Positions 8,343 through 37,085 of a stretch of 44,516 bases of DNA are shown here, one piece after another (the stretch's first letter is position 1; every line of letters starts with the position of its first letter). The DNA is from a virus. Under the pieces are notes generated by a model. The model was not told the DNA's origin and ran no database searches. It saw nothing but the letters and a program-made list of their open reading frames with translations. The stretch covers positions 1 to 44,516 of the IMG/VR virus record IMGVR_UViG_3300044713_000162, one strand, 5' to 3'. The position numbers were made by a program, and so were the translations under genes.

Positions 8343-10037
8343 CTAGTACGTTACCCAGTTGGTGCCGTTGCACATGACCGGAGCCACTACCGCGCCGCCG
8401 CTCGCATAGGTTCCGAGAAACGTCGGCGTGGTCGCATCACTCACCACGGTGCGTCCGCCTTTCCGGGCGCTGTTGCAGGCCGGAATCGCAGTTCCCGCGG
8501 CGCTGTAAATCACGCTCGGAATCAGCACCCCGGAGTAGTCCATACAGACCAGCAGGGTTCCCGGCGTGGTTCCCGTGGCCGTTCCGTCGTGCCAGGTCTG
8601 TTGGCAGTTGGTCCCGGTCAGATTGGTGGCCGTCAGTTGCGGATCGACGGACAAAGCCGTGGTGGGTCCGCTGGTCGTGCCCGTGATGGTGGGATTGATG
8701 TTCACGCCGATAAAACTCGTGCTGCCGGCGGTGGGATCAAATTCCGTGCCCACCCAGACGCCAATATTTTTCGAGGAGCCGGAAGCGGGCTGAAACAGCT
8801 CTTTCCCGTAGCCTCCGATCGTGCCGCTTAAATTGATTCCCCCGAGCACGATCCCGTAGTTGGGTCCGGTCGTGTTGGTGCGCGTGACCTGGCCGCCGAT
8901 ATCCACGTCCGCCGCGCCCCCGGTTCCGGCATTCCCCAGCAGTCCCGTGCTCGTCGCCGCCGCTTGCGCGAAGAAATTGTAGCCTTGGCTGTTGGTGACC
9001 CCGTCGCTCGGTTGCACTCCGATCTGCCCTGCGATATTCGCGAAGCCGTTGTTGATGTTGGCAAATGCGAGTTGCGGTGCCCCTTGCGCGGAGGAATTCA
9101 CCGAGGCGAAGAAGATCGAGCCGCCCGCGTTGGCCGGGTTGTTCCCGGTGAGGGAAAAGAACAGGCTGGGATTGTTGTTTCCGATGTTTCCCTTCGAGAA
9201 AATGTCCCACTGCATCTGCTGCGAAATGGTGCCGGTCCAGCTGTTGGCGGTAAATTCCAGAGCCGGCGTCGTGTTGACCGACGTCGCAGTGGCCGTCGCG
9301 GAGTTGAGGAATTGCAACACGCCCAGCGGCGCGGAGCCGGCCACTTGCTTCAGGGTGAGAGTGCTTTGCGCCGACGAAGCGGTGACCCCGCTCTCGGCCA
9401 CGCTGGCCTGATTGGCATGGTTGCTGGGATCGTCGAAGGTGATCGAGGTCGCCGTGTTGGTGATGAGGGAAACCGGCACGCCGTTCAGCCAGGTGCAGGT
9501 CGTAAAACCGGCGAAGGTCACGATGGCCCCCACGCCCAGCGGTCCCGCTTGATTGGTGGGGAACACCGTCATGCCCGTTCCCGTGAGAGTGACCACTCCG
9601 GAAGTTTCCGCGCAATGGGAAACCAGTCCCGCCGCCATCGTGGTCGAAGTGCCGGGAATATCCTGCAGCGTCCAGCCGTCCGTCGCCGAAGCCAGCGTCG
9701 GTCCCCACCAGGTGCCGTTCCATCCCGCGTAGGGCGAGGATTGCGGCGTCGAGGAAGTCGCGGGCGTCGAGTTGGTCAAGTTGAAGTTGCTGCTGCCCCC
9801 GCTCCCTCCGCTGGCCAGAACCCAGCTTCCGCCCGGAGTGGGGCAGGTGTAGATGTTCCCGTTCGAACTGTTCATGTAAATCACGTTCGTTCCGGGACAG
9901 GTGCCCGAGGGCGCACCCACACCAACTTGCATGCTGATGGGATAGTTCGACGGGCCGGGCGCGCCCTGCGCGAAGACCAGCGCACTCGCAAACAACAGCA
10001 GAGCAGGCAGAAGAGAGAGAAAGTTTTTGATTTTCAT
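8343..10037 (-). CDS. Fibre-like protein with Sec signal peptide, 564 aa
   Basis: The start ATG 10037 overlaps the upstream stop as ATGA. Residues 1-24 form a clear signal peptide (MKIKNF, a Leu/Ala core, then VFAQ). The mature protein is Gly/Thr/Ser/Asn-rich beta sequence, with no catalytic motif, ending near a repeat-like ATTPTFLGTYASGG region typical of fibre or host-recognition proteins. It lies at the distal end of the late unit, where phages keep tail fibres. A Sec signal on a virion protein is unusual, because virions assemble in the cytoplasm. It may be exported instead, or the signal may be retained. The fibre role is inferred. Confidence 0.7.
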   Translation of the reverse strand: MKIKNFLSLLPALLLFASALVFAQGAPGPSNYPISMQVGVGAPSGTCPGTNVIYMNSSNGNIYTCPTPGGSWVLASGGSGGSSNFNLTNSTPATSSTPQSSPYAGWNGTWWGPTLASATDGWTLQDIPGTSTTMAAGLVSHCAETSGVVTLTGTGMTVFPTNQAGPLGVGAIVTFAGFTTCTWLNGVPVSLITNTATSITFDDPSNHANQASVAESGVTASSAQSTLTLKQVAGSAPLGVLQFLNSATATATSVNTTPALEFTANSWTGTISQQMQWDIFSKGNIGNNNPSLFFSLTGNNPANAGGSIFFASVNSSAQGAPQLAFANINNGFANIAGQIGVQPSDGVTNSQGYNFFAQAAATSTGLLGNAGTGGAADVDIGGQVTRTNTTGPNYGIVLGGINLSGTIGGYGKELFQPASGSSKNIGVWVGTEFDPTAGSTSFIGVNINPTITGTTSGPTTALSVDPQLTATNLTGTNCQQTWHDGTATGTTPGTLLVCMDYSGVLIPSVIYSAAGTAIPACNSARKGGRTVVSDATTPTFLGTYASGGAVVAPVMCNGTNWVTY

Positions 10038-11311
10038 TTGGGACCGATCGCGAACCAGGTGTAGGGGGCTCCATCGGAGCTGTTGACGGTGACGCTTGTA
10101 TTCGTGATGCTGCCGGAGTAGTTGGTCGTTCCGATTCCCCCGGTGGTGAAGAGCACGACCGGCGTCCCGCTGAAGGCAGGGCTGAAGGTGATCGTGCCCG
10201 AGCCGGTGCCGGTGCCGAACTCGATGCGCAGCCCGGAGGACGGGGCAGTGATTGGTCCAGTGCCCGTTCCGGCATCGACGCAATTCCCGTTCGCATCCGT
10301 CGTCACCCCATCGCCAGAGGTGAACGATCCGGTGCAGGCGAAGAAATTCGCGCCCGTCGAGCCCTGCACGCCCGTTAAAGTCTGCGAGCCGCCGACTTTG
10401 TAGGAGAGCGCATCGAACGGTCCGGCAAACGCGGAATCATCGCCCAGGCGAAGTTGCAGGCCGGTCGAAACCGGCTTCAGCATGGGGAACGAGGAAGTGA
10501 ATCCCCCGAACCACAATTTCGCGGTCGCTCCGGTCAGCGCGAAGCCGCCGGCAAAACTGGCCGTGCCCACGTCGGAGGAGTTGACGCCCAGGCCTTCGTT
10601 GGCGTTGTTGGCGAAGTTGCGCCAGAAAATCGAATCGGAGTTTGCCAGGGCGACGGCGCCGGCGGTGGCGGGATTGCTTGCAGTCGAGAGGAACTGCGCC
10701 GCGGAACTCGTGGCGGTGGCGGCCACATTCGCCGCGCTGATGTTCGCCGTCGAAACGATGTTTCCGGTGGAGAAGTTGGCGCAGGTGTTGGGTACGCCTC
10801 CAAAGGAGCCGGCATCGTTCGCTTCCAGTTCGCAGTTGGAGCCGCCCGGCGAACCGACGGCCACCGTGGTGACGAACGGCCCCATCGAAATTCCATTCAC
10901 GGTGAGCGTGTAGGCATAGGTGCCGGAGGGCGTGTAGACGCCCAGGTTGCCGAAATTGTCGCCCGTCGCCTGGCAGGTGTTTGAATCCTGCAGCACGATC
11001 TGCGCGTTGGTCGGGCATGGCGAGACCGAAGTCAGAGAAGGGTACGTGTTGGCAAAATTGGTGCACGGGATCGCGTTCGCAGGGTAGTTGCACCATTGCA
11101 GGCTCACACCCGGCAGAGCCACCAGGAAAGGCAGCCCGGAGCCGGAAGTGGTCACCGCCCCGGCCGAGCCCGGCGCTCCTAAATCCCAGCGCGTGTTCTG
11201 GGCGTGGGCGACCCCACTTAGGTAACAGACCGTAACCAACACCAAAGTGAGCCAGGCGATCGGGCTTCGGTGGTCTGGCGGACGGAGCTGGGGTGAGAGA
11301 AGATTAGTCAT
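10034..11311 (-). CDS. Fibre-like protein with Sec signal peptide, 425 aa
   Basis: The start ATG 11311 gives MTNLLSPQL, a long n-region, a hydrophobic core and a cleavage site of the form VAHA-QNT at about residue 38. A TTG at 11344 would add 11 residues. The mature part is Gly/Ser/Thr/Asn-rich beta sequence with cysteines spaced through residues 70-110, and ends GAPYTWFAIGPK. It is coupled by ATGA to the second fibre-like gene and resembles it in composition. The likely role is host recognition or a secreted adhesin; the sequence alone cannot decide. Confidence 0.7.
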   Translation of the reverse strand: MTNLLSPQLRPPDHRSPIAWLTLVLVTVCYLSGVAHAQNTRWDLGAPGSAGAVTTSGSGLPFLVALPGVSLQWCNYPANAIPCTNFANTYPSLTSVSPCPTNAQIVLQDSNTCQATGDNFGNLGVYTPSGTYAYTLTVNGISMGPFVTTVAVGSPGGSNCELEANDAGSFGGVPNTCANFSTGNIVSTANISAANVAATATSSAAQFLSTASNPATAGAVALANSDSIFWRNFANNANEGLGVNSSDVGTASFAGGFALTGATAKLWFGGFTSSFPMLKPVSTGLQLRLGDDSAFAGPFDALSYKVGGSQTLTGVQGSTGANFFACTGSFTSGDGVTTDANGNCVDAGTGTGPITAPSSGLRIEFGTGTGSGTITFSPAFSGTPVVLFTTGGIGTTNYSGSITNTSVTVNSSDGAPYTWFAIGPK

Positions 11312-23610: not shown

Positions 23611-24891
23611 TTAGTAGCTCGCCGGGATGCCAGCATTCGGCCAGTACACACCTGCTCTTGGGTTATCAACAAAAAAATTGAACCCGCCCCAGATGTAGGT
23701 GACCGTGGCCGCCGACAATCCACCGCTCGCGCCGTAGATCGGCCACAAGGTTTGCCCGCCGAAATCGAGCGGACCGATCGGTTTGATCTCGCCGCGGCCC
23801 CAGTGCTTGAGCACCAGGCCGTCGAGGCGTCCGCGCTTGGCGTGGATCGAGACCAGCTTCTCCATGCCGCCGATGGTTTCGGCCGAGTCGCGTTGCAGCA
23901 TGTCGACGGCGTTGCCGCCTTTCAACTGATTCGCGACCACGATTTGCGGAGTGAGCGACAGGTTCTGCCAGGCCGCGTCCTGGTCGGTGTTGCAGTGCAC
24001 CAGGAACTCTTTCACGTTGGGGTTGTCGATGCCCAAGGCCGACTTCATCGCGTTCTTGCCGCGCTGGATGGCCGCGGGAGTGACCGCGAAGCCAGCCAGG
24101 TTCACCTGGGGCGTGATCAGGCGTCCGGGATAGGCCGGGCGCCCCAGGTTCAGCCAGGTGCCGGTGTTGCCGGGGTTGTTCTGGTGATACTGCAGGGAGA
24201 ACAGCGAGGTCGACGCCACGCCGGGAGCTCCGGCAATGATGCAGAGATCGCCGGCGACGGTGCCCGCGGGAACCGGCCCGGTGAGATAGACCGTCTGCGT
24301 CGACGTGGTTGCGTCGTTCGACAGGACGGTGACCGTGCCGTCGGGGTTATAACCGGCGCGCGCGGGTTGGCCCAGCGCCGAGAAGATGTTGAAGCTCATC
24401 TGGTCCTGGAACTGGTTGGCGTTCCCGACGACGAGCTGGTTGGCTCCCGTCGAGACCACGGTGTCGATGGTGCCCGATCCGGTCGAATCGGAGTTGAGCA
24501 GCGACTCCAGAAACACCTTGAAGCGCTGCGTCATCTTTTCGAGGTTCCGCTTGGCTGCGGGCTCGACCGCTTTTTCCTTGTTGTCGGTCGCGATCTCGGC
24601 GTACTTGGTGAACTCGGTCGCGGCCGAGAAAAACACCGGGGAGAGTTGCCAGTAGGTCGAGACGATGGCTTTGCCGCGTCCGAAGTCGCCGCCGTCCGGA
24701 TCCACCTGCGAAGGCGAAGTGCCGGAGTAAACGTCGAGGATGCCGCGCATGGCGCGGGAAGACTGCACTTCGACGTTGCGTTTCTCGATCTTGTCGAACA
24801 GGGTCGAGTCGCCCTGCATCAGCTCCTCGATGCGGGGCAGAAGTTTTTCGTACTGATAGGCGATGTATTGCGCGTTGGTTCCTTGTGGCAT
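23611..24891 (-). CDS. Major capsid protein
   Basis: The start ATG 24891 follows GACCCGGAGCTTACGACC. This 426-residue protein comes right after scaffold and portal, the usual order. The N-terminal helical region (MPQGTNAQYIAYQYEKLLPRI, DKIEKRNV) and later blocks such as TPAAIQRGKNAMKSALG and a C-terminal WGGFNFFVDNPRAG fit an HK97-fold capsid protein of the podoviral type. About 415 copies would be expected for a T=7 head; that is family knowledge. A 250-base non-coding leader with stable hairpins precedes it. Confidence 0.85.
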   Translation of the reverse strand: MPQGTNAQYIAYQYEKLLPRIEELMQGDSTLFDKIEKRNVEVQSSRAMRGILDVYSGTSPSQVDPDGGDFGRGKAIVSTYWQLSPVFFSAATEFTKYAEIATDNKEKAVEPAAKRNLEKMTQRFKVFLESLLNSDSTGSGTIDTVVSTGANQLVVGNANQFQDQMSFNIFSALGQPARAGYNPDGTVTVLSNDATTSTQTVYLTGPVPAGTVAGDLCIIAGAPGVASTSLFSLQYHQNNPGNTGTWLNLGRPAYPGRLITPQVNLAGFAVTPAAIQRGKNAMKSALGIDNPNVKEFLVHCNTDQDAAWQNLSLTPQIVVANQLKGGNAVDMLQRDSAETIGGMEKLVSIHAKRGRLDGLVLKHWGRGEIKPIGPLDFGGQTLWPIYGASGGLSAATVTYIWGGFNFFVDNPRAGVYWPNAGIPASY

Positions 24892-25141: not shown

Positions 25142-26539
25142 TTACGGCCGCTTCACCTGGATCAGTTTTCCGGTTTTCAGGCGGTAAATCCCGTTCCACT
25201 TGTCGGTGAGCGGATCGGAGTAGTTGATGTCCTTCGCTGGCGGGAGCGCATTCACTAAGACCGGCGTCTCTTTGCCGAAGCTGCGGCGTTCTCCGTTGCC
25301 GTTGCCCGCGCCCTTGTCGCCTTTGTCGTTGTCGGCCGCGTTGCCGCGCCGAGCGCCTGCTTTCGGAGCGCCGAACCAGTCCGCGAAGATCGTCGCCGCC
25401 ACGCCGGGTTTGTCGTCCGTGCCTTTGATGGCCTCGTCATGGCGCTTGTTCAGCATGCGAATGCATTTCTTGGTGTCGCCGGAATGCAGCGCTTCCGAGT
25501 AGCGGTCGAGCCACTTCTCGTCGGCCAGAATTTCCTGCTCCATCTCTTTGCGAACGTCTTTCAAAAAGCGCCCGTAGCGGTTGGGTTGTGTTTTCTGTAG
25601 CTTTGCCAGATCGAACTGGGCAGCCTTCGCGGCCGCGGCGACTGAGCTCTCGATCGAGCGCGTCAAATAGGGCGCGGCTTCGACGTTGATGGTCTTGTTG
25701 CGGATGGTGGCTTTTTCCTCGCTGAGTTTCGTCTTCTCGGCCGCCAGCGGATCGCCCTGCTTCTCGGGAACTTTCTTCGCGAATTCGTGGCGCGAGTTGT
25801 AGTACTTCGCGAGCTGCTGCGCGAGGGCTTTCGCCTCCGGGTTGTCTTTGATCGAGGCCAGCAGCGAGTAAATCTTTTCGACCGGCAGATTCTGCAGATC
25901 GTTCACGATCACCTTCGCCATCAGGTGGTCGTAGTGCTCGGGGTGATGTTCGGAGACGTAGCCGAGCGCGTTGGTGAAATGCTTCAGCGAGAGATCGGGA
26001 TCTTCCTTGAAGGAATTCTCGATCCACTTCGGGTCTCCGGAGTTGAAGGCTTCGGCATCGGCGTTGTAGATTTCGAGATCGCCCTGCAGCTTCTCGATCC
26101 CGTCGACGCCGCCAAACTCTTCGATCTGTTTGGCGAGGCCGATCGCTTCCTTCACTCCGCCGGGGAAGACTTTGGCAAGCGCGCGCTGGTTGAAGTAGTC
26201 GGCGCGGAGGTTCTTGTCTTTCTCGAAGAGCTCTTTGTACTTGGCCGGGACTTTGCGCCCGTCGGCGAGTGGGACTTGCGCGTTCGGATCGGTGCCGTCG
26301 CCTTCGCCCTGCCCTTCAGCGCCCAGATCGGCATCGTCACCAGCGCCAGCGTCGCCGCCGCCATCGCCACCATCGCCACCGTCGCCGGAAGATCCATCCC
26401 CGCCGCCGCCAGCATCCCCAGCTCCGCCATCGCCACCGCCTCCATCGCCCGCAGTCGCGAGCGCACTCGCGCCATCGGCGAAGAAAAATGTTCCCGCAAA
26501 GAGAAATCGTAACAGCCAGAATTTAAGCAGGTGTCGCAT
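25142..26539 (-). CDS. Putative capsid scaffolding protein with signal-like N-terminus, 465 aa
   Basis: ATG 26539 is chosen because CTGGAGGACTTCCCA precedes it. The first 25 residues are strongly hydrophobic with basic residues (MRHLLKFWLLRFLFAGTFFF, then ADGASALA), like a Sec signal. A Gly/Asp-rich segment of about 50 residues follows, then an acidic, helical Lys/Glu-rich protein of about 380 residues. Such composition and its position between portal and capsid are typical of scaffolds. Scaffolds normally act in the cytoplasm, so the hydrophobic start is odd; it may tether assembly to the membrane, or the start may lie later. It overlaps the portal gene by 17 bases. Confidence 0.68.
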   Translation of the reverse strand: MRHLLKFWLLRFLFAGTFFFADGASALATAGDGGGGDGGAGDAGGGGDGSSGDGGDGGDGGGDAGAGDDADLGAEGQGEGDGTDPNAQVPLADGRKVPAKYKELFEKDKNLRADYFNQRALAKVFPGGVKEAIGLAKQIEEFGGVDGIEKLQGDLEIYNADAEAFNSGDPKWIENSFKEDPDLSLKHFTNALGYVSEHHPEHYDHLMAKVIVNDLQNLPVEKIYSLLASIKDNPEAKALAQQLAKYYNSRHEFAKKVPEKQGDPLAAEKTKLSEEKATIRNKTINVEAAPYLTRSIESSVAAAAKAAQFDLAKLQKTQPNRYGRFLKDVRKEMEQEILADEKWLDRYSEALHSGDTKKCIRMLNKRHDEAIKGTDDKPGVAATIFADWFGAPKAGARRGNAADNDKGDKGAGNGNGERRSFGKETPVLVNALPPAKDINYSDPLTDKWNGIYRLKTGKLIQVKRP

Positions 26540-28898
26540 TGGGAAGTCCTCCAGGTGCTGGGGTCGCAAGATCGGGTAAGGCGGCAGCTCCGGCCGGCGG
26601 AGCTCCACCGCCAGGAGCGCCGGGGCCACCGGGTTTCGGCATCGGCATGGGCGGCGGGGGCGGCCCTTCAATCGGGGGCGGGAACATGAAGCCTTTGGCC
26701 TTGCCCGCCTTCACGTGTTCCATCATGTGCAGTTTCAAATCAAGCCAAATCAAAGCGCCCTGGCGGCCGTCGCCCAGGTCTTTCGTGCGTTTGATCTTCT
26801 GGCCTTCCGGCGAGTTCAGGATGCGCGAACATTCCAGAGCTTCGTTCACGTGATCTTCGGAATCGTCGACCGGGATCGAGGATTTCTGAATCGGGGGCTG
26901 CTTGGGCAGCGGCGGCATCTCCTGCGGTTGTTTCCCGAGCGCGGCGGCTGCGGTTGCGAGTTGCTGCTGGCGCTGCTGCTCGCGCTGGTCAGTTGCGTCC
27001 TGGTCGATTTCCGGGCCTTCGCCTTCCTGCATCTCGGCCCACTCTTGAATCTGTTTCTGGCGGGGATCGCGGCCGGGGATGTCGAACTCGTCGAGGCCGA
27101 TGGCTTCAAACTGCAGCTCTTGATTGGTGGGCAGCTGCAGGGCCGCGGCCAGGGGCGGATTCTGCGGCGCCGCGGCCATCAGGCCTTTGATGGTCGTTGA
27201 CTTGGCCTGCCAGGACTCAGGGAATCCCTGCGCCGGGATGGGCGAGCACACAAATCCTCCGCGCAGAATCAGCGGATCGATTTCGATGGCTTCCTCGCGC
27301 CGGTTGGAGTTCTCGACCAACGCTGCGAATTTCTCATCGCGCTTGGCGGCGATCTTGGCGGCCTGCTCATGGATCTTCGCCGAGAAATTCTGGAAGGGCA
27401 CCCAGACGATGGTCAGCACGCCGAGCGACTGCTGCAGCGCCTGGCCGTAGGCCTTCGCCGTCTTCTGGTCTTCCATGTTGGCCCCGAACATGGCGGGCTG
27501 GTTCAAGGTGACGAGCTGGGTCAGCGGTCCCTGCAGGTTCTGGATCCATTCCGTCAGCACCATCGGCGCTTCGACGCCGGGCTCGGGGAAGAAACTGTTT
27601 TCGAGAGGCTCTCCCTCGGCCTTTTTCTTGAAACGGATCTGGCCGTACTGCGCCAGCTGGCTCATGATGGCCTGGGCTTCGGTCTCGTCCATGTCGGCCC
27701 ACAGCGAGGGCACGCAATATTTCAGCAGCTCGGCTGTGAGGTTCATGGCATCGTTGAATTCCATCTGCACCGGCACGTGCGGATCGCCGAGAGAGTTGCG
27801 GGCCTGGCCTTCGCCGGGTTCGGCGTGCATGACGGTGACGTGCTCGTCGAGCGCGCAGGCCTCGGCGCCGCAGAAGGTTTCGCCGATAAAGGTCAGCTTG
27901 CAGCCCTTGGGGAAAATTCCGTCTTTCTCGACTTCATTGCCGTCTTCGTCTTCGCCCTGGCCGCCCACAAAGAACAGGCGCGCTTCGTCTTCGCATTCCC
28001 AGAAGGCCGCGGGGCGCAACCACCACTCATCTTCGGTCGTGAGATACGCCAGGGAGTCCTGCGAGAGCTGGGTGATCGATTCCGCGGTCGAGATGCGAGC
28101 CATGCGCGCGATCTCATCGTTCGGCGTAGCCGACTTGCCGCCGGCGGTGATCTTGTCGGCGACCTGCTTGTGCTTCTGCTTCATCGAGACCACGTCGTGG
28201 TCTTTTGAAACTTTGCAGTAGGGCCACAGCTCCTCGCAGGTTTCGTAGATGGGAACTTTCGATTCGAGCACTCCGGCGTAGCGGGTTTTTTCGGTGTCGC
28301 CGCAGCCTTCGGTGATGGCGATCACGCGGCCGTCGTTCCACAGCAACCGTCCGATGGTGATCTGCGCGTCCTGGGCGGGGTTGTACTTGTCGTAGACTTT
28401 GAGATATTTCTCGGCTTCGCGCGCCGCCCGGATCGAGGCGGATTCCTTGGGCTTGTCCGGCTCCATGCGCACCGAGGGCGGATTCTGCGCGAACACGGCG
28501 GTGAAGATCTTGCCGTTCGGTTTGTAGATGTTGAAATCTTGCGCCGACGTTCCTTGCTCGTCGTTCAGGTTCTCCGCGGTGTTGACCGCGCCGCCCTGCT
28601 GCCCCACCTGGAAGCAGCAGCTATCGTTGTTCCACCAGACGTGTTGCAGCCCGATCCAGAAATAGCGTTTCAGGGTGCAGCGCAGAATCTCGATCTGCCG
28701 TCCCCACTGATCGCGCAGGTTGAACTTGTTGCACAGCGCGCGCAGCTGCTCGACGCGCTTTTCGGGAAGGTCGAGAAACTTCGGCCCGTATTGCTCTTCG
28801 GGCGTCTGGGTTTCTTCCGCGGAGTCGTCTTCGTCCTGCGCGTCCGCGTCGGCGGGCAGGGAAGCGGTTTCTTCGGGAGTGTCGAGTAGATCAGGCAT
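26523..28898 (-). CDS. Portal protein (P22-like)
   Basis: This 791-residue protein is similar in size and plan to the P22 gp1 portal (725 residues). It forms the dodecameric ring through which DNA is packaged and ejected. An acidic N-terminus of about 40 residues is followed by helical and mixed domains (KRYFWIGLQHVWWNNDSCCF, NPPSVRMEPDKPK), a central helical stem region, and a Gln-rich, Pro/Gly-rich tail beyond residue 650. The tail (PPPIEGPPPPPMPMPKPGG) is disordered and may form the P22-like barrel or interact with ejection proteins. It precedes scaffold and capsid genes. Confidence 0.85.
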   Translation of the reverse strand: MPDLLDTPEETASLPADADAQDEDDSAEETQTPEEQYGPKFLDLPEKRVEQLRALCNKFNLRDQWGRQIEILRCTLKRYFWIGLQHVWWNNDSCCFQVGQQGGAVNTAENLNDEQGTSAQDFNIYKPNGKIFTAVFAQNPPSVRMEPDKPKESASIRAAREAEKYLKVYDKYNPAQDAQITIGRLLWNDGRVIAITEGCGDTEKTRYAGVLESKVPIYETCEELWPYCKVSKDHDVVSMKQKHKQVADKITAGGKSATPNDEIARMARISTAESITQLSQDSLAYLTTEDEWWLRPAAFWECEDEARLFFVGGQGEDEDGNEVEKDGIFPKGCKLTFIGETFCGAEACALDEHVTVMHAEPGEGQARNSLGDPHVPVQMEFNDAMNLTAELLKYCVPSLWADMDETEAQAIMSQLAQYGQIRFKKKAEGEPLENSFFPEPGVEAPMVLTEWIQNLQGPLTQLVTLNQPAMFGANMEDQKTAKAYGQALQQSLGVLTIVWVPFQNFSAKIHEQAAKIAAKRDEKFAALVENSNRREEAIEIDPLILRGGFVCSPIPAQGFPESWQAKSTTIKGLMAAAPQNPPLAAALQLPTNQELQFEAIGLDEFDIPGRDPRQKQIQEWAEMQEGEGPEIDQDATDQREQQRQQQLATAAAALGKQPQEMPPLPKQPPIQKSSIPVDDSEDHVNEALECSRILNSPEGQKIKRTKDLGDGRQGALIWLDLKLHMMEHVKAGKAKGFMFPPPIEGPPPPPMPMPKPGGPGAPGGGAPPAGAAALPDLATPAPGGLPNATPA

Positions 28899-29205
28899 TT
28901 AGAAGAGCTTCTGCGGCAGCTTTTTCGTCATCATTCGCGATGCGGCAATCGAGGATGCTGTAGTCGTAAAACCAGAACGCGGCGTGCTTCCATCCGCGCT
29001 CATGTTCGAAAATTCGGAAGGGTTCAGCGTGGCGAGGCAGGCCAAGATCGCCATGCAGACTCTCGGGCATCTCGCCCTCACCCTTTTTCACTAGATAGCC
29101 GATGCGTCGCGAGACTAAGCCGCCCGACGCTCCGTACACCGAGAAAGAATCCATCTCGCCGATGAAAACGCGATAGACCCCGTCTGCTAAAGGTTCGAGT
29201 CTCAT
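28891..29205 (-). CDS. Unknown protein before the portal, 104 aa
   Basis: The start ATG 29205 overlaps the upstream stop as ATGA, and its end overlaps the portal start by eight bases. The first 70 residues are beta-rich (RVFIGEMDSFSVYGASGGLV). The middle has aromatic clusters (GWKHAAFWFYDYS) and the tail is helical. No family is recognised. Confidence 0.65.
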   Translation of the reverse strand: MRLEPLADGVYRVFIGEMDSFSVYGASGGLVSRRIGYLVKKGEGEMPESLHGDLGLPRHAEPFRIFEHERGWKHAAFWFYDYSILDCRIANDDEKAAAEALLNA

Positions 29206-29426
29206 TCCGGGTCCGGATCTTGCGGCGCGTCCGGCGTGTAACAGCTCACCGTCACCGAATCGGCGTCGGAGGTTTCAAAGAACCAGCGGCCCGAGTCGCA
29301 GGTGTGCGGGGCGTACAGCGTCTGCCGTTCTTCCGAGAGATGGTTTTGATTCGCCGCAGACGTGCGTCCGTCGGGCACCAGGCAGATCAGGAACCACAGC
29401 GCGAAAACTGCGAGCAGGAATCTCAC
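29202..29426 (-). CDS. Small exported protein, 74 aa
   Basis: The start GTG 29426 overlaps the upstream stop as GTGA. Residues 1-24 form a hydrophobic signal (MRFLLAVFALWFLICLV) with a possible cleavage around TSA-ANQ. The mature part is about 50 residues with two cysteines (HTCDSG and VSCYTP), which could form a disulphide in the periplasm. It may be a spanin-like or envelope factor, but no family match supports this. Confidence 0.65.
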   Translation of the reverse strand: MRFLLAVFALWFLICLVPDGRTSAANQNHLSEERQTLYAPHTCDSGRWFFETSDADSVTVSCYTPDAPQDPDPE

Positions 29427-30384: not shown

Positions 30385-32109
30385 CTAGTTCAACACTTCG
30401 ACGGTCAGGTTCATCAGCTGCGGTGAAACGTCGGTGCCCGTGGTGTGTAGTTGCACCACGTGCAGACGCGAGGTGAAGCCCGCGCCGCCCGCCAGGTTGA
30501 GCGAAGCGGTGGTCGCGGTGAAGGTGTCGCCGCCCACGAAGATCGCCGCCGGCGTCGCCGAGAGGTACTGCTCCCAGAACGAATAGCCGCCTTCGATCGA
30601 TCCCGACGTGACAGTCGTGCCCGCCGCGGTGGTGAAGCCTTGCCAGCAGAAATTGCCGGTGTAGGCTGCAGCCGTGTTCGGTCCGACGGTCGCTGAAAGG
30701 TTCGCGATGTTGACGGGAACACCGGCAGCGTTTGAGCCGGCACCATCCCACCACAATTGGATCTTCTCCACAGTCGCCGACGCTCCGGTCAGCTGCTCTT
30801 TGCCGCAGACCCGGATTTCCTTGCTGACATAGTTCAGGAAGCCAGCAGGGACGGCGAGAGTTCCGATCACGCAGGGCACGGCGGTCGCGACGGTGGCGGG
30901 GCAGGCCGTGAAGGGCTGGCTCGATCCGACGATGCCGTTTAAGCCAACATGTGCTCCAGGCACGTAGGCATAGACGGTGTGCCCGTTCGAGTTGCCGACG
31001 TAATCGGAGGTTGTCGAGATGGTGCCGAGCTGCAGCGCGAGCGGGGAAGTGTTGACGGTGAGCGCCGAGACAATCGCGTTCGATCCGGTCTGCCCGTAGG
31101 CCGTGTTCGCCACAGCGCAGGCCGGGGTGACGGTCTCAAACGTGGTCAGGGTGCAGACCGAACTCGTCAACGGCACCTGGTAGGCGAAAGAGTAAGAACC
31201 GGAAGCCAGCGAGATGTAAACCGTGTAGCCAATCGCGCCGGCCGAAGCGACGGGAGCCGCGATGCCGATCTGATTGGTTGAGCCAGTCCCCGCCGTCAGT
31301 GAACTGAAGTCGAGCGAGCAGGGGCCTTCGTTGCCCATGATGTCGACGTAGGAAACGCAGGCGTGATAGGTCGAAGTGCCGGTGTAGGTGCCGCCGGTGG
31401 TGTTGGCGCCGTTCAGGCCGAAGCCAACCGTGGTGGCGGTCAGCGTGGCCGGCACAGCGAGAAACGTGTCATTCGCCGGAGCGGGTCCCCAGTAGCCATT
31501 GCCGTAAGGGCCATCGCGTTCGATGGTGACGGTCGGAAACACGATCAGCCCATTCAGCAGCGCGGCCACACTGGCGTAGCAGTTGGTGCAGCTCAGGTTC
31601 ACGCCGCCTTCCCAGGCTTTGTCCGAGACGACGATGCCGCCGCCCGCCAAGTAAGCGTCGTAGATCGCTTCCGCCATGCCCGCGGTTCCGGAGACGACAG
31701 GTTCGCCGAAGCCATGGGTGTTCGAGAAGCTGCCGGTCACCTGGCACTGGCCGTTGCCGGTCGAAGAGTTGTAGTAGCAATTCGAGACCGCGGTCGGCAG
31801 CAGATATTCCTGGTTCGACGGGCCGCCCACGATGATCGGGGTGAAGATGTTGTAGGGCAGGATCTGGCGGCCGTCGGGCAACTTGATCGAGGCGATCTGC
31901 AAGGTGATGGTGGCGGTGCCGGTCGCCGAGTTGCCGTTGACGACGTAGTTGTTCGTCGAAGGATAGTTGTAGTTGGACGCGACGAAGCGCCCAGCGACGC
32001 GGCTTTGGTTCGAGCCGCCGGAAGGCGCGTACTGCGCGGATGACGGCACACCCGTTGCTACAACGAGAAGGGCTGCCGCAAGGAAAGCGAGTGTGCGGAT
32101 GGTTTTCAT
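30385..32109 (-). CDS. Fibre-like protein with Sec signal peptide, 574 aa
   Basis: ATG 32109 follows AAAGGAGCACTACCTCTC. Residues 1-26 are a textbook signal: MKTIRTLAFLAAALLVVATG then a site of the form SSAQ-YAP. The mature protein is beta-rich, Gly/Thr/Ser/Asn-heavy, with Tyr and Cys spread through it (YNYPSTNNYVVNG, CSLDFSS), much like the fibre-like pair at 8343-11311. It has no catalytic motif. It is far from those genes, near portal and terminase. It may be a capsid or tail fibre, or an exported receptor-binding protein. Confidence 0.7.
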   Translation of the reverse strand: MKTIRTLAFLAAALLVVATGVPSSAQYAPSGGSNQSRVAGRFVASNYNYPSTNNYVVNGNSATGTATITLQIASIKLPDGRQILPYNIFTPIIVGGPSNQEYLLPTAVSNCYYNSSTGNGQCQVTGSFSNTHGFGEPVVSGTAGMAEAIYDAYLAGGGIVVSDKAWEGGVNLSCTNCYASVAALLNGLIVFPTVTIERDGPYGNGYWGPAPANDTFLAVPATLTATTVGFGLNGANTTGGTYTGTSTYHACVSYVDIMGNEGPCSLDFSSLTAGTGSTNQIGIAAPVASAGAIGYTVYISLASGSYSFAYQVPLTSSVCTLTTFETVTPACAVANTAYGQTGSNAIVSALTVNTSPLALQLGTISTTSDYVGNSNGHTVYAYVPGAHVGLNGIVGSSQPFTACPATVATAVPCVIGTLAVPAGFLNYVSKEIRVCGKEQLTGASATVEKIQLWWDGAGSNAAGVPVNIANLSATVGPNTAAAYTGNFCWQGFTTAAGTTVTSGSIEGGYSFWEQYLSATPAAIFVGGDTFTATTASLNLAGGAGFTSRLHVVQLHTTGTDVSPQLMNLTVEVLN

Positions 32110-32186
32110 GAGAGGTAGTGCTCCTTTGGTAGGCGATTCGGAAATTTGTGAACTCGTGATGGGTGAAGCGGGAAGCGAAAAGTCTT

Positions 32187-32588
32187 CTAGCTGTTGTCGT
32201 ACATGCTGGCGAGATCTTCCGGCTCGTCGCCGTCGGGCTCGTCGTGGCTCATCTGGCCGTCGTCTTCGGCGTCGTCGTCTTTCTCGCCGTGCATCGCGTC
32301 CATGTGGTCTTTGGCGTCGTCGTAACTGGCGTGCTCGCCCGGTTCTTTGCGGCCGTCCGGGTGCGTGTGCATGGAGGTGTAGGAGCCGTCTTCCATCGGC
32401 CCGTGCATTTCGTGGTGGTGCATACCGTCGCCCTGATCCTTGCCCTGATCGTCCGAGCCGTTGTGATCTTCGCCGGGCTCTTCCTGGTCGGAGGGGCGGC
32501 TCATCCCGTCGGCGGATTTCGACTCGCCGGGCTTTTCCATTCCGCGCCGCCGCGCTTCCATGGCGGTCATGCCTTTGTGCTGAAACAT
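32187..32588 (-). CDS. Acidic His/Met-rich protein, 133 aa
   Basis: ATG 32588 starts an unusual sequence: after 20 basic residues it is almost all Asp, Glu, Gly, Ser, His and Met, including GMHHHEMHG and DAMHGEKDDD. It is probably disordered and could bind divalent or transition metals. A scaffold accessory role is also conceivable. It lies between the structural gene at 32595 and the fibre-like gene. No family is recognised. Confidence 0.65.
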   Translation of the reverse strand: MFQHKGMTAMEARRRGMEKPGESKSADGMSRPSDQEEPGEDHNGSDDQGKDQGDGMHHHEMHGPMEDGSYTSMHTHPDGRKEPGEHASYDDAKDHMDAMHGEKDDDAEDDGQMSHDEPDGDEPEDLASMYDNS

Positions 32589-33554: not shown

Positions 33555-33661
33555 AACGGCCACAACTCACGCCAACGGTAGCGATGACAGCCGTTGCCGG
33601 GAATCCAGCGCCAGTACATGCGCCATGCCCAGGCCTGCACTGCATTCTTGAACTTCCTCAT
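33551..33661 (-). CDS. Tiny Trp-rich protein, 36 aa
   Basis: ATG 33661 overlaps the terminase stop as ATGA and its own stop overlaps the next ATG. The 36 residues contain six tryptophans (AWAWRMYWRWIP), with basic residues. Double ATGA coupling in a dense operon supports it. Its role is unknown; a membrane-active peptide is possible. Confidence 0.6.
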   Translation of the reverse strand: MRKFKNAVQAWAWRMYWRWIPGNGCHRYRWRELWPL

Positions 33662-35250
33662 GAGTAGGCCTTCCCGCCGAGCTTCTCGATCAGCGACTTC
33701 ACCGTCACCACTTCGCCTTCCGCCGGCTTCGGCATCTCGCCCGCGAAATCCTTCCGCACGCTCTGCAACCGCTCGTGCAGTTTCACCTCGCGGCTTTTCA
33801 CTGACGCGCCCAGCATGAACTGCAAACCGTAGCGGGCGGAGTCCGCGGGATCGTCGCCGATCTGGTTCTCGCTGAAGTTCACGCTCAACACGTCTTCGGT
33901 GTTATTGGGATCGCGGACCAGCGAGGGAATGCACTCGACCAGGTGCGGGCAATCTTCGCCGACGATCTGCCACAGGTCCGCGTCGAGCAACTGGGCCATC
34001 AAGCGCCATCCCGAGATGCGCGAGCCAGGTGAAGATTCCGCCGGGTGCGGCTTCGGCATTTCTTTCGGCATGGCTTCGGAAATCATCTGCCCGATCGAGC
34101 GCCGCTTGCCAGGATCGCGCGGGGAGAGTTTGCCGAAGTCCCAGGAGTAGGGGAAGGCGTCGAACTTGTGGCCCGCGGAAAGCTGGCCGATCTTTTTGCC
34201 CAACTCTTCTTCGCCGACGCCGCGGCCCCAGTGCTCGCGGTAGGTGATCACGCGATTGTGTTCGTCGATCACGTGCCAGTGCACCGCACCGGGATGGTCG
34301 AAGCCCCAGTCCCCGGAGAGCCAGCGTTTATGCCAGGGCTTGATGCGGGCTTCGGCCTCCGCTCTGGAAATCACATGGCGCGCCGGACTCCATTGTTTAA
34401 AATACTGCCCTTCAAACGTGTCCCACTTGCCGTAGAGCCAGGCTTCGCGCAGCTCCTTGTCGGTCAGCGCGAGCAAATCTTGCCCGTAGTAGGTGCGGGT
34501 GAGAAAGTACTCGCGGCGCTGCTCTTCCGGCCAGGAATAGAACACGCATTCCTGACACGGGCACGAATCATCACCGGGCTGATGCACGCCGTGGCCGATG
34601 CCGTCGCGCGTGAGTTCGGCGCGCGCCCACTCGATGTTGTCCCAGCTGAAGGCCTGCAGGAACGCCCAGTTGAATTGCTTCTCTTCCGGCTTCAGAATCC
34701 CGTCGATGAAGACGCGCTTCAGGTACGGAAGTCCCTTGGGCGGCAAACCGCTGGGCGAGCGGCCGGGCATGAAGCTGTAAACCTGCGTGGGCACGATGTC
34801 GGGATTGCTTGTACAACGTAACGATCCGCTCATGCGCTCCAGTTCGTCCTGCGAGAACTCCTGGGCTTCGTCGGCGAAGATGTCGGCGTATTCCGAAGAG
34901 CAGAAATCGGCGACGTCCTTCGACGTCGGGGCGGAGCCGAAGTAAAGCGTCGAGCCCACTTCCGGGAACACCAGTTTCTTTTTCTGCTCGTTGTAGTTGC
35001 GCCGCAGCTCGGGCATTTCCTGGAACAGCTTCTGCAGGTGCGACTGCTCCAGTTCTTTCTGGGAGCGCCGCAAGATCAATCCGGTCGTCATGGGAAATTC
35101 GAGCCGCCGCGCGATCATGATGCGGCGCACGCCGCCCGATTTCGAGCCGCCGCGCGAACCGCCAAAGCCGATCCGGCGGCAGCGGGGATCATTCCACAGG
35201 GCCGCGAGCAAGCTTTGCTTTGGTTGCAGCCTGATCTTGAGGGCGTCCAA
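33658..35250 (-). CDS. terL: Terminase large subunit
   Basis: This 530-residue protein is the packaging ATPase and nuclease. The P-loop is GFGGSRGGSKSGG at residues about 28-40, an imperfect Walker A. Walker B is YADIFADEAQ at about 123-132. The nuclease domain begins with GDWGFDHPGAVHW near residue 315, with further acidic residues near NTEDVLSVNF. An insertion with CPCQEC (about 231-236) may bind zinc. The start TTG 35250 has no clear ribosome site and overlaps the small subunit by 62 bases, so translation may be coupled or the real start may be later, but it must precede the P-loop. Portal and capsid genes lie downstream. Confidence 0.88.
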   Translation of the reverse strand: MDALKIRLQPKQSLLAALWNDPRCRRIGFGGSRGGSKSGGVRRIMIARRLEFPMTTGLILRRSQKELEQSHLQKLFQEMPELRRNYNEQKKKLVFPEVGSTLYFGSAPTSKDVADFCSSEYADIFADEAQEFSQDELERMSGSLRCTSNPDIVPTQVYSFMPGRSPSGLPPKGLPYLKRVFIDGILKPEEKQFNWAFLQAFSWDNIEWARAELTRDGIGHGVHQPGDDSCPCQECVFYSWPEEQRREYFLTRTYYGQDLLALTDKELREAWLYGKWDTFEGQYFKQWSPARHVISRAEAEARIKPWHKRWLSGDWGFDHPGAVHWHVIDEHNRVITYREHWGRGVGEEELGKKIGQLSAGHKFDAFPYSWDFGKLSPRDPGKRRSIGQMISEAMPKEMPKPHPAESSPGSRISGWRLMAQLLDADLWQIVGEDCPHLVECIPSLVRDPNNTEDVLSVNFSENQIGDDPADSARYGLQFMLGASVKSREVKLHERLQSVRKDFAGEMPKPAEGEVVTVKSLIEKLGGKAYS

Positions 35251-36554: not shown

Positions 36555-37085
36555 TCAAACTTTAAGAGCACGCCCCACAGCCGCGGAAGCTTCGGCGTCG
36601 GAAACTTTCAGGTAGGCTCCGGTCGAGGCCATCGATTTGTGGCCCAGGTACTGCCGGACATTTTCAATTCCCGCGGAATGAATGGCTTGCATGCCGATCG
36701 TGTGTTTCAGGATGTGCGGGTGGCGCTTGCGTTCGGGGATGCCCGCGGCCTTCGCGTAGCCCTGCACCAGGCGCCAGAAGTGCTGCCGGCAGACCGGGAA
36801 CACTCTTTGCTTTCCCGGCATGGAAGCGACGAAAGCAGACAGCGCGGCACGCTCGTTTAAGAGCGGATTCGGGTCCTCGACCAGGGGCTGCACGGTGCGC
36901 AAACTGCCCTTCAGTCGAGCCACGGCCAGATGCCCGTCGACGATGGCATCCCGTTGCATTCGCGTGATTTCTGAGGCGCGCAGACCGTGGGAGTAGGCCA
37001 CCAGGATCATCAGGAAGTCGCGCTCGCGTTCGGCGCGGGCTGCGGCCAGAAGTGCAAGTAATTCGCGTTTGCTTAGGGCTTCCAA
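36555..37085 (-). CDS. Compact tyrosine recombinase/integrase
   Basis: This 176-residue protein is the catalytic domain of a tyrosine recombinase. Visible residues are Arg36 (HGLRASE), Lys59, the H-x-x-K of HILKHT at 124-127, His149 (YLGHKS) and the nucleophile Tyr158 (TGAYLK). The usual HxxR arginine is replaced by lysine. The N-terminal core-binding domain of about 100 residues is missing, and TTG 37085 lacks a ribosome site, with an in-frame stop 33 bases upstream. So it is either a short-type recombinase or a 5'-truncated remnant. It could act in integration or dimer resolution. A candidate att site is not identified. Confidence 0.82.
   Translation of the reverse strand: MEALSKRELLALLAAARAERERDFLMILVAYSHGLRASEITRMQRDAIVDGHLAVARLKGSLRTVQPLVEDPNPLLNERAALSAFVASMPGKQRVFPVCRQHFWRLVQGYAKAAGIPERKRHPHILKHTIGMQAIHSAGIENVRQYLGHKSMASTGAYLKVSDAEASAAVGRALKV

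Follow-up and report, generated by a model that had tools for sequence, protein, structure and literature searches.

A putatively exported, disulfide-bonded adhesin-like protein family encoded among the head genes of uncultured phages

Tailed-phage virions are, by the textbook, built wholly in the cytoplasm. Why, then, would a gene set among phage head genes encode a protein with a signal for export? The question is raised by a gene in a virus record of 44,516 bases, which was analysed at its whole length and is called the window here. A sequence-only reading had proposed an ORF of 574 residues with a Sec signal at 30385-32109, lying between the portal and terminase genes. Both proposals were borne out: the ORF has one good start behind an AGGAG sequence and a predicted SSA/Q cleavage site (the slash marks the cut), and its flanks are recognizable as portal and terminase. 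The gene product is called P0001 below. The features around it are as follows.

23611-24891, minus strand: major head protein (MCP), from a PHROG head protein match (E 0.0014) and position
25142-26539, minus strand: probable scaffold with a hydrophobic N-terminus, from position and a low-complexity acidic N-terminal part
26523-28898, minus strand: portal protein (portal profile match, E 0.005)
30385-32109, minus strand: signal-bearing adhesin-like protein P0001, 574 aa
32035-32109, minus strand: Sec signal peptide of P0001, residues 1-25, predicted cleavage SSA/Q
32121-32125, minus strand: Shine-Dalgarno (SD) sequence AGGAG; an AGGAG-type site precedes the start in nearly all relatives
33658-35250, minus strand: terminase large subunit, TerL (PF04466, PHROG terminase)

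Directly upstream of the P0001 gene lies a 133-aa ORF with many Asp, His and Met residues (32187-32588, minus strand; GMHHHEMHGPMEDG).

Signal peptides were judged with our own scoring of the n-, h- and c-regions and of the true start. By this scoring P0001 has a predicted cleavable N-terminal signal with all three regions. Its N-terminus reads MKTIRTLAFLAAALLVVATGVPSSA, followed by QYAPSGG after a predicted A-x-A/Q-type site; the charge of the n-region is +2 and the best hydrophobic 10-mer has a mean Kyte-Doolittle value of 2.98. AGGAG is found 11 nt before the start codon, whereas no SD precedes any other start-like codon within the first 80 (GTG at 21, TTG at 70 and 77). A downstream start, which the sequence-only reading had raised as an objection to itself, is therefore unlikely. 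Signals as good as this one appeared in about 5 of 100,000 shuffles (0.005%) of P0001's own composition, and the same strict test was passed by no terminase, portal, scaffold, MCP or tail ORF of related contigs. The shuffles, these control ORFs and the single SD-bearing start rule out a hydrophobic start that arose by chance.

Scans of a viral contig collection yielded 43 loci encoding relatives of P0001, and further ones were reached by MCP and terminase searches. The family was found here solely in uncultured viral contigs: a search of 84,980 bacterial and archaeal genomes gave none, and tblastn against cultured phages gave no match for P0001, for its relatives L043, L048 and L073, for the portal or for the MCP. 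P0001 matched nothing in Pfam or NCBIfam and nothing in PHROG below E 0.1, and a PDB search with the family profile gave no credible match; two short relatives matched phrog_15388, a family of unknown function. Nearly all relatives share the order terminase, P0001 gene, portal, scaffold, MCP, with L017, where the P0001-type gene follows the MCP, as an exception. Many phages with related MCP and head genes do not carry the P0001 gene, which is therefore regarded as accessory. A phage integrase family recombinase encoded at 36555-37085 (minus strand; PF00589) suggests a temperate life style, although no provirus with the P0001 family or with the terminase was found in bacterial or archaeal genome contigs. 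Two MCP alignments gave no usable host pattern.

Long members of the family have about 520-600 aa, and short forms of about 270-300 aa share the N-terminal domain and have a different C-terminal part. In P0001, three domains were delimited.

31510-31998, minus strand: conserved N-terminal domain, about residues 38-200, common to long, short and signal-less forms
31075-31467, minus strand: middle beta domain, about residues 215-345, with the YVDIMGNEGPCS motif and the cysteine pairs C251-C264 and C319-C331
30388-30939, minus strand: C-terminal beta-sandwich, about residues 391-574, with weak resemblance to TNF-like/jelly-roll lectins and the pair C435-C488

P0001 diverges faster than the neighbouring genes. 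Between the window and its nearest relative, L011, identity is 94% for the MCP, 89% for TerL and 55% for P0001. Most blocks of the P0001 alignment with L011 have 68-84% identity before residue 150 and 28-72% after it, and L012 and L013 show other mosaics of identity blocks against P0001. Outside the signal, dN/dS of P0001 against L011 is about 0.28-0.33, a value that rules out averaged diversifying selection. A conserved N-terminal part, with a putative role in attachment, is combined with an exchangeable C-terminal part: the C-terminal half is swapped, or replaced in the short forms. Such divergence is typical of adhesins with exchangeable tips.

The cysteines of the family bear more directly on export. 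Exported bacterial proteins favour an even number of cysteines, a preference taken to guard against mispaired disulfides (PMC7678975). In all 45 distinct signal-bearing members, the window protein with its 12 included, the number of cysteines in the mature part is even (2, 4, 6, 8, 10 or 12). Ten of the 45 precursors have an odd number, which becomes even only with the predicted signal removed. On the tree the cysteine count changes at least 17 times, every time between even numbers, and cysteine columns co-vary pairwise (r=1.0 for 251-264, 319-331, 391-424 and 435-488; r=0.9 for 469-489). Controls on the family-carrying contigs had no such parity: even counts were seen in 12 of 32 terminases, 26 of 46 portals and 19 of 32 MCPs, and the other non-signal ORFs of at least 200 aa were divided into 132 even and 150 odd. 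Three members whose contigs were fetched via the terminase and not via P0001, after the pattern was seen (L129, L126 and L137), were even too, and the result was unchanged without L008 and L028, whose C-termini are missing because the contig ends there. From even mature parity, paired columns and controls without parity, we conclude that Sec export, cleavage and disulfide bonding of the P0001 family are probably real; the predicted pairing makes sense only after signal cleavage. The sequence-only reading had seen deliberate export in place of a chance hydrophobic start, and this claim is well supported by a signal and a parity conserved throughout the 45 members and by the even counts (8 and 8) of the two other large signal-bearing proteins of the window.

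The same counts make it highly improbable that the hydrophobic N-terminus stays on the protein as an uncleaved virion or membrane anchor and that disulfides form only after lysis. Tail proteins of phage Milano have an extensive disulfide network (PMC10811340), with their export-free synthesis as an assumption, and the scaffolds of some relatives also have hydrophobic N-termini; both would suit such an anchor. However, the ten odd precursors become even only without the signal, the A-x-A/Q-type site is kept in nearly all relatives, the signal-less forms described below have no replacement anchor, and the scaffolds are nearly free of cysteine (0.06 per 100 aa). Milano resembles what we propose for P0001 in having disulfides in phage structural proteins, but these are contractile-tail proteins, and a signal peptide is not mentioned in PMC10811340.

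The probable scaffold of the window starts with MRHLLKFWLLRFLFAGTFFFADG behind a good SD. A hydrophobic N-terminus is present in a minority of its relatives, and the remainder begin with an acidic stretch. Perhaps the hydrophobic form reflects head assembly at the membrane, or export of a scaffold-like protein.

The signal of P0001 is not always kept. Homologues lacking it had been named in advance as evidence against export, and seven usable ones were found, though they have lost most of their cysteines too: L043, L136 and L142 have 2, L085, L143 and L144 have 1, and L124 has 0. All other usable members carry the signal. Cysteines per 100 aa amount to 0.40 in the signal-less members against 1.75 in the signal-bearing ones. 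The signal-less ORFs, two of which are short (168 and 176 aa), begin at the position of the mature N-terminus and are mostly preceded by a ribosome-binding site. In the tree of the N-terminal domain they nest among signal-bearing members, and well supported branches force at least two switches, so that the joint change of signal and cysteines amounts to two independent comparisons only. We read signal and cysteines as one trait, which would be oxidative folding in the periplasm.

Wherever both flanks are present, the signal-less genes keep the slot between terminase and portal. Because these members persist in the same slot, the job of the family seems not to be tied to a periplasmic location. 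Signal-bearing and signal-less forms could both act at an extracellular site that lysis opens to them, and we suggest a site reachable from cytoplasm and periplasm alike, that is, the released virion or the lysate.

This persistence weighs on the main rival explanation, in which P0001 is an exported effector of the envelope or cell surface that might exclude superinfecting phages, mask receptors or protect the producer cell, and would at no stage enter the virion. Phage proteins of this kind are known, since T4 Spackle gp61.3 is exported and cleaved and works in the periplasm (PMC7650644) and Lom is an outer-membrane protein (PMC12309495), and the P0001 gene is accessory to the head module. 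However, seven relatives whose lack of a signal would bar them from the periplasm until lysis still have the N-terminal domain and occupy the slot, the C-terminal half of P0001 is swapped like a fibre tip, and the gene is embedded in head genes; we consider the effector unlikely. Spackle is like P0001 in being a phage protein with a signal, but it is a lysozyme inhibitor of 97 aa, and homology to P0001 is not expected.

P0001 is not the only signal-bearing protein of this phage. The sequence-only reading had counted three such genes, and the other two were found as follows.

8343-10037, minus strand: third signal-bearing protein, 564 aa, 8 mature cysteines; its start overlaps the stop of the preceding gene
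10037-11311, minus strand: second signal-bearing protein, 425 aa, 37-aa signal, 8 mature cysteines; weak C-terminal H-type lectin match

The count of three holds, and a fourth small gene at 29202-29426 and the hydrophobic N-terminus of the scaffold (26539) come in addition. The small gene, on the minus strand between the portal and P0001 genes, is a 74-aa ORF with a GTG start and a weak SD, and encodes a signal-like N-terminus followed by exactly two cysteines. Common ancestry of P0001 with the pair at 8343-11311 was not detected by sequence, as BLASTP gave E 0.26 or worse and the family HMM gave no detection. The pair had no relatives in the viral contig collection; among cultured phages the 425-aa protein had no match and the 564-aa protein a single 8% match, in a Burkholderia phage. 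Of the beta-rich style which P0001 was said to share with the pair, the predominance of strands stood in the prediction for P0001, which comes from a poor AlphaFold model made from 9 sequences (pLDDT 54); the sharing found no counterpart in sequence similarity.

On related contigs, other signal-bearing proteins of at least 200 aa had even cysteine counts in 44 cases and odd counts in 16, by crude gene calls. A signal-bearing protein of L086 has a pectate-lyase tailspike domain (PF12708, E 4e-13), and L008 has a signal-bearing beta-helix protein. As the pair is even, the others lean even and such domains occur in L086 and L008, this phage group seems to export adhesin-type proteins habitually. 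Very large proteins of 1150-1590 aa were seen in L060, L063, L086, L096, L111 and other MCP relatives that have no P0001 gene; their signals end in A or G directly before QGSRKDDIVF, and they have 16-32 cysteines, mostly an even number.

What kind of protein P0001 is can be approached by its likeness to known ones. Residues 383-574 of the low-confidence model are weakly alike in predicted structure to the TNF-like lectins BC2L-C-N and PLTL, with Z of about 7.3-7.7, but sequence identity is about 9%, and a Z of about 7.7 is below the level that the fold-comparison tool calls meaningful and is common by chance. No close relative stood in the VIA-align list, which is not evidence for a new fold. 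Receptor-binding fibres and tailspikes of tailed phages are beta-rich, as P0001 is predicted to be, and like it long and modular, with swappable C-terminal parts and a late structural gene setting; the signal-bearing proteins of this phage group include the L086 one with its tailspike domain. P0001 differs from them by its paired cysteines, and its sequence matched none of the known families of fibres, spikes or lectins. The description of P0001 as fibre-like draws on the weak model and on domain mosaicism, and found no echo in known fibre sequences. To our knowledge, no characterised tailed-phage fibre has a cleaved Sec signal, and no report of one was found in open-licence papers.

The same export evidence and the weak lectin-like fold of the model would also suit a free secreted lectin or adhesin, which is released by lysis, binds host debris, polysaccharide or surfaces, and is never on the particle. 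We hold this to be quite doubtful, as the gene has long stayed between terminase and portal, which suggests that its product is made together with the head.

The likeliest role of P0001 is that of a mosaic, lectin-like adhesin that is folded in the periplasm and joins or accompanies the virion at lysis. To the reading as an exported, cleaved and periplasm-folded adhesin that joins the virion or acts beside it at lysis, we give a probability of roughly 55%. P0001 would be made with a cleavable Sec signal and exported, and the signal would be removed; the protein would then fold under the oxidising conditions of the periplasm and form as many as six disulfides. Cell lysis would let it reach the outside, where it would most likely join the virion, or work next to it, as a fibre or decoration that binds the host or a surface. 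The steps up to the disulfides draw on the sequence statistics given above; we infer that the disulfides form in the periplasm, that the C-terminal beta domain has a ligand and that the protein attaches to particles at lysis.

Particles of tailed phages are put together in the cytoplasm, so a subunit that has been exported can meet them only at a late stage. P22 tailspikes are able to bind finished heads in vitro, and late attachment would thus be possible for short-tailed phages. More tentatively, assembly in this group of uncultured tailed phages may use two compartments, with fibre-like proteins that are exported by Sec, disulfide-bonded in the periplasm and mounted once lysis mixes the compartments.

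An exported, disulfide-bonded adhesin family in the head module would break the cytoplasm-only rule, or else bring to light exported phage effectors of a new class. The contrast between signal-bearing, cysteine-rich and signal-less, cysteine-poor members opens the question to testing in expression strains of E. coli, with no need for the native host. Counting cysteines once the signal is removed, to see whether their number is even, is also an inexpensive general test of real export for phage proteins from metagenomes.
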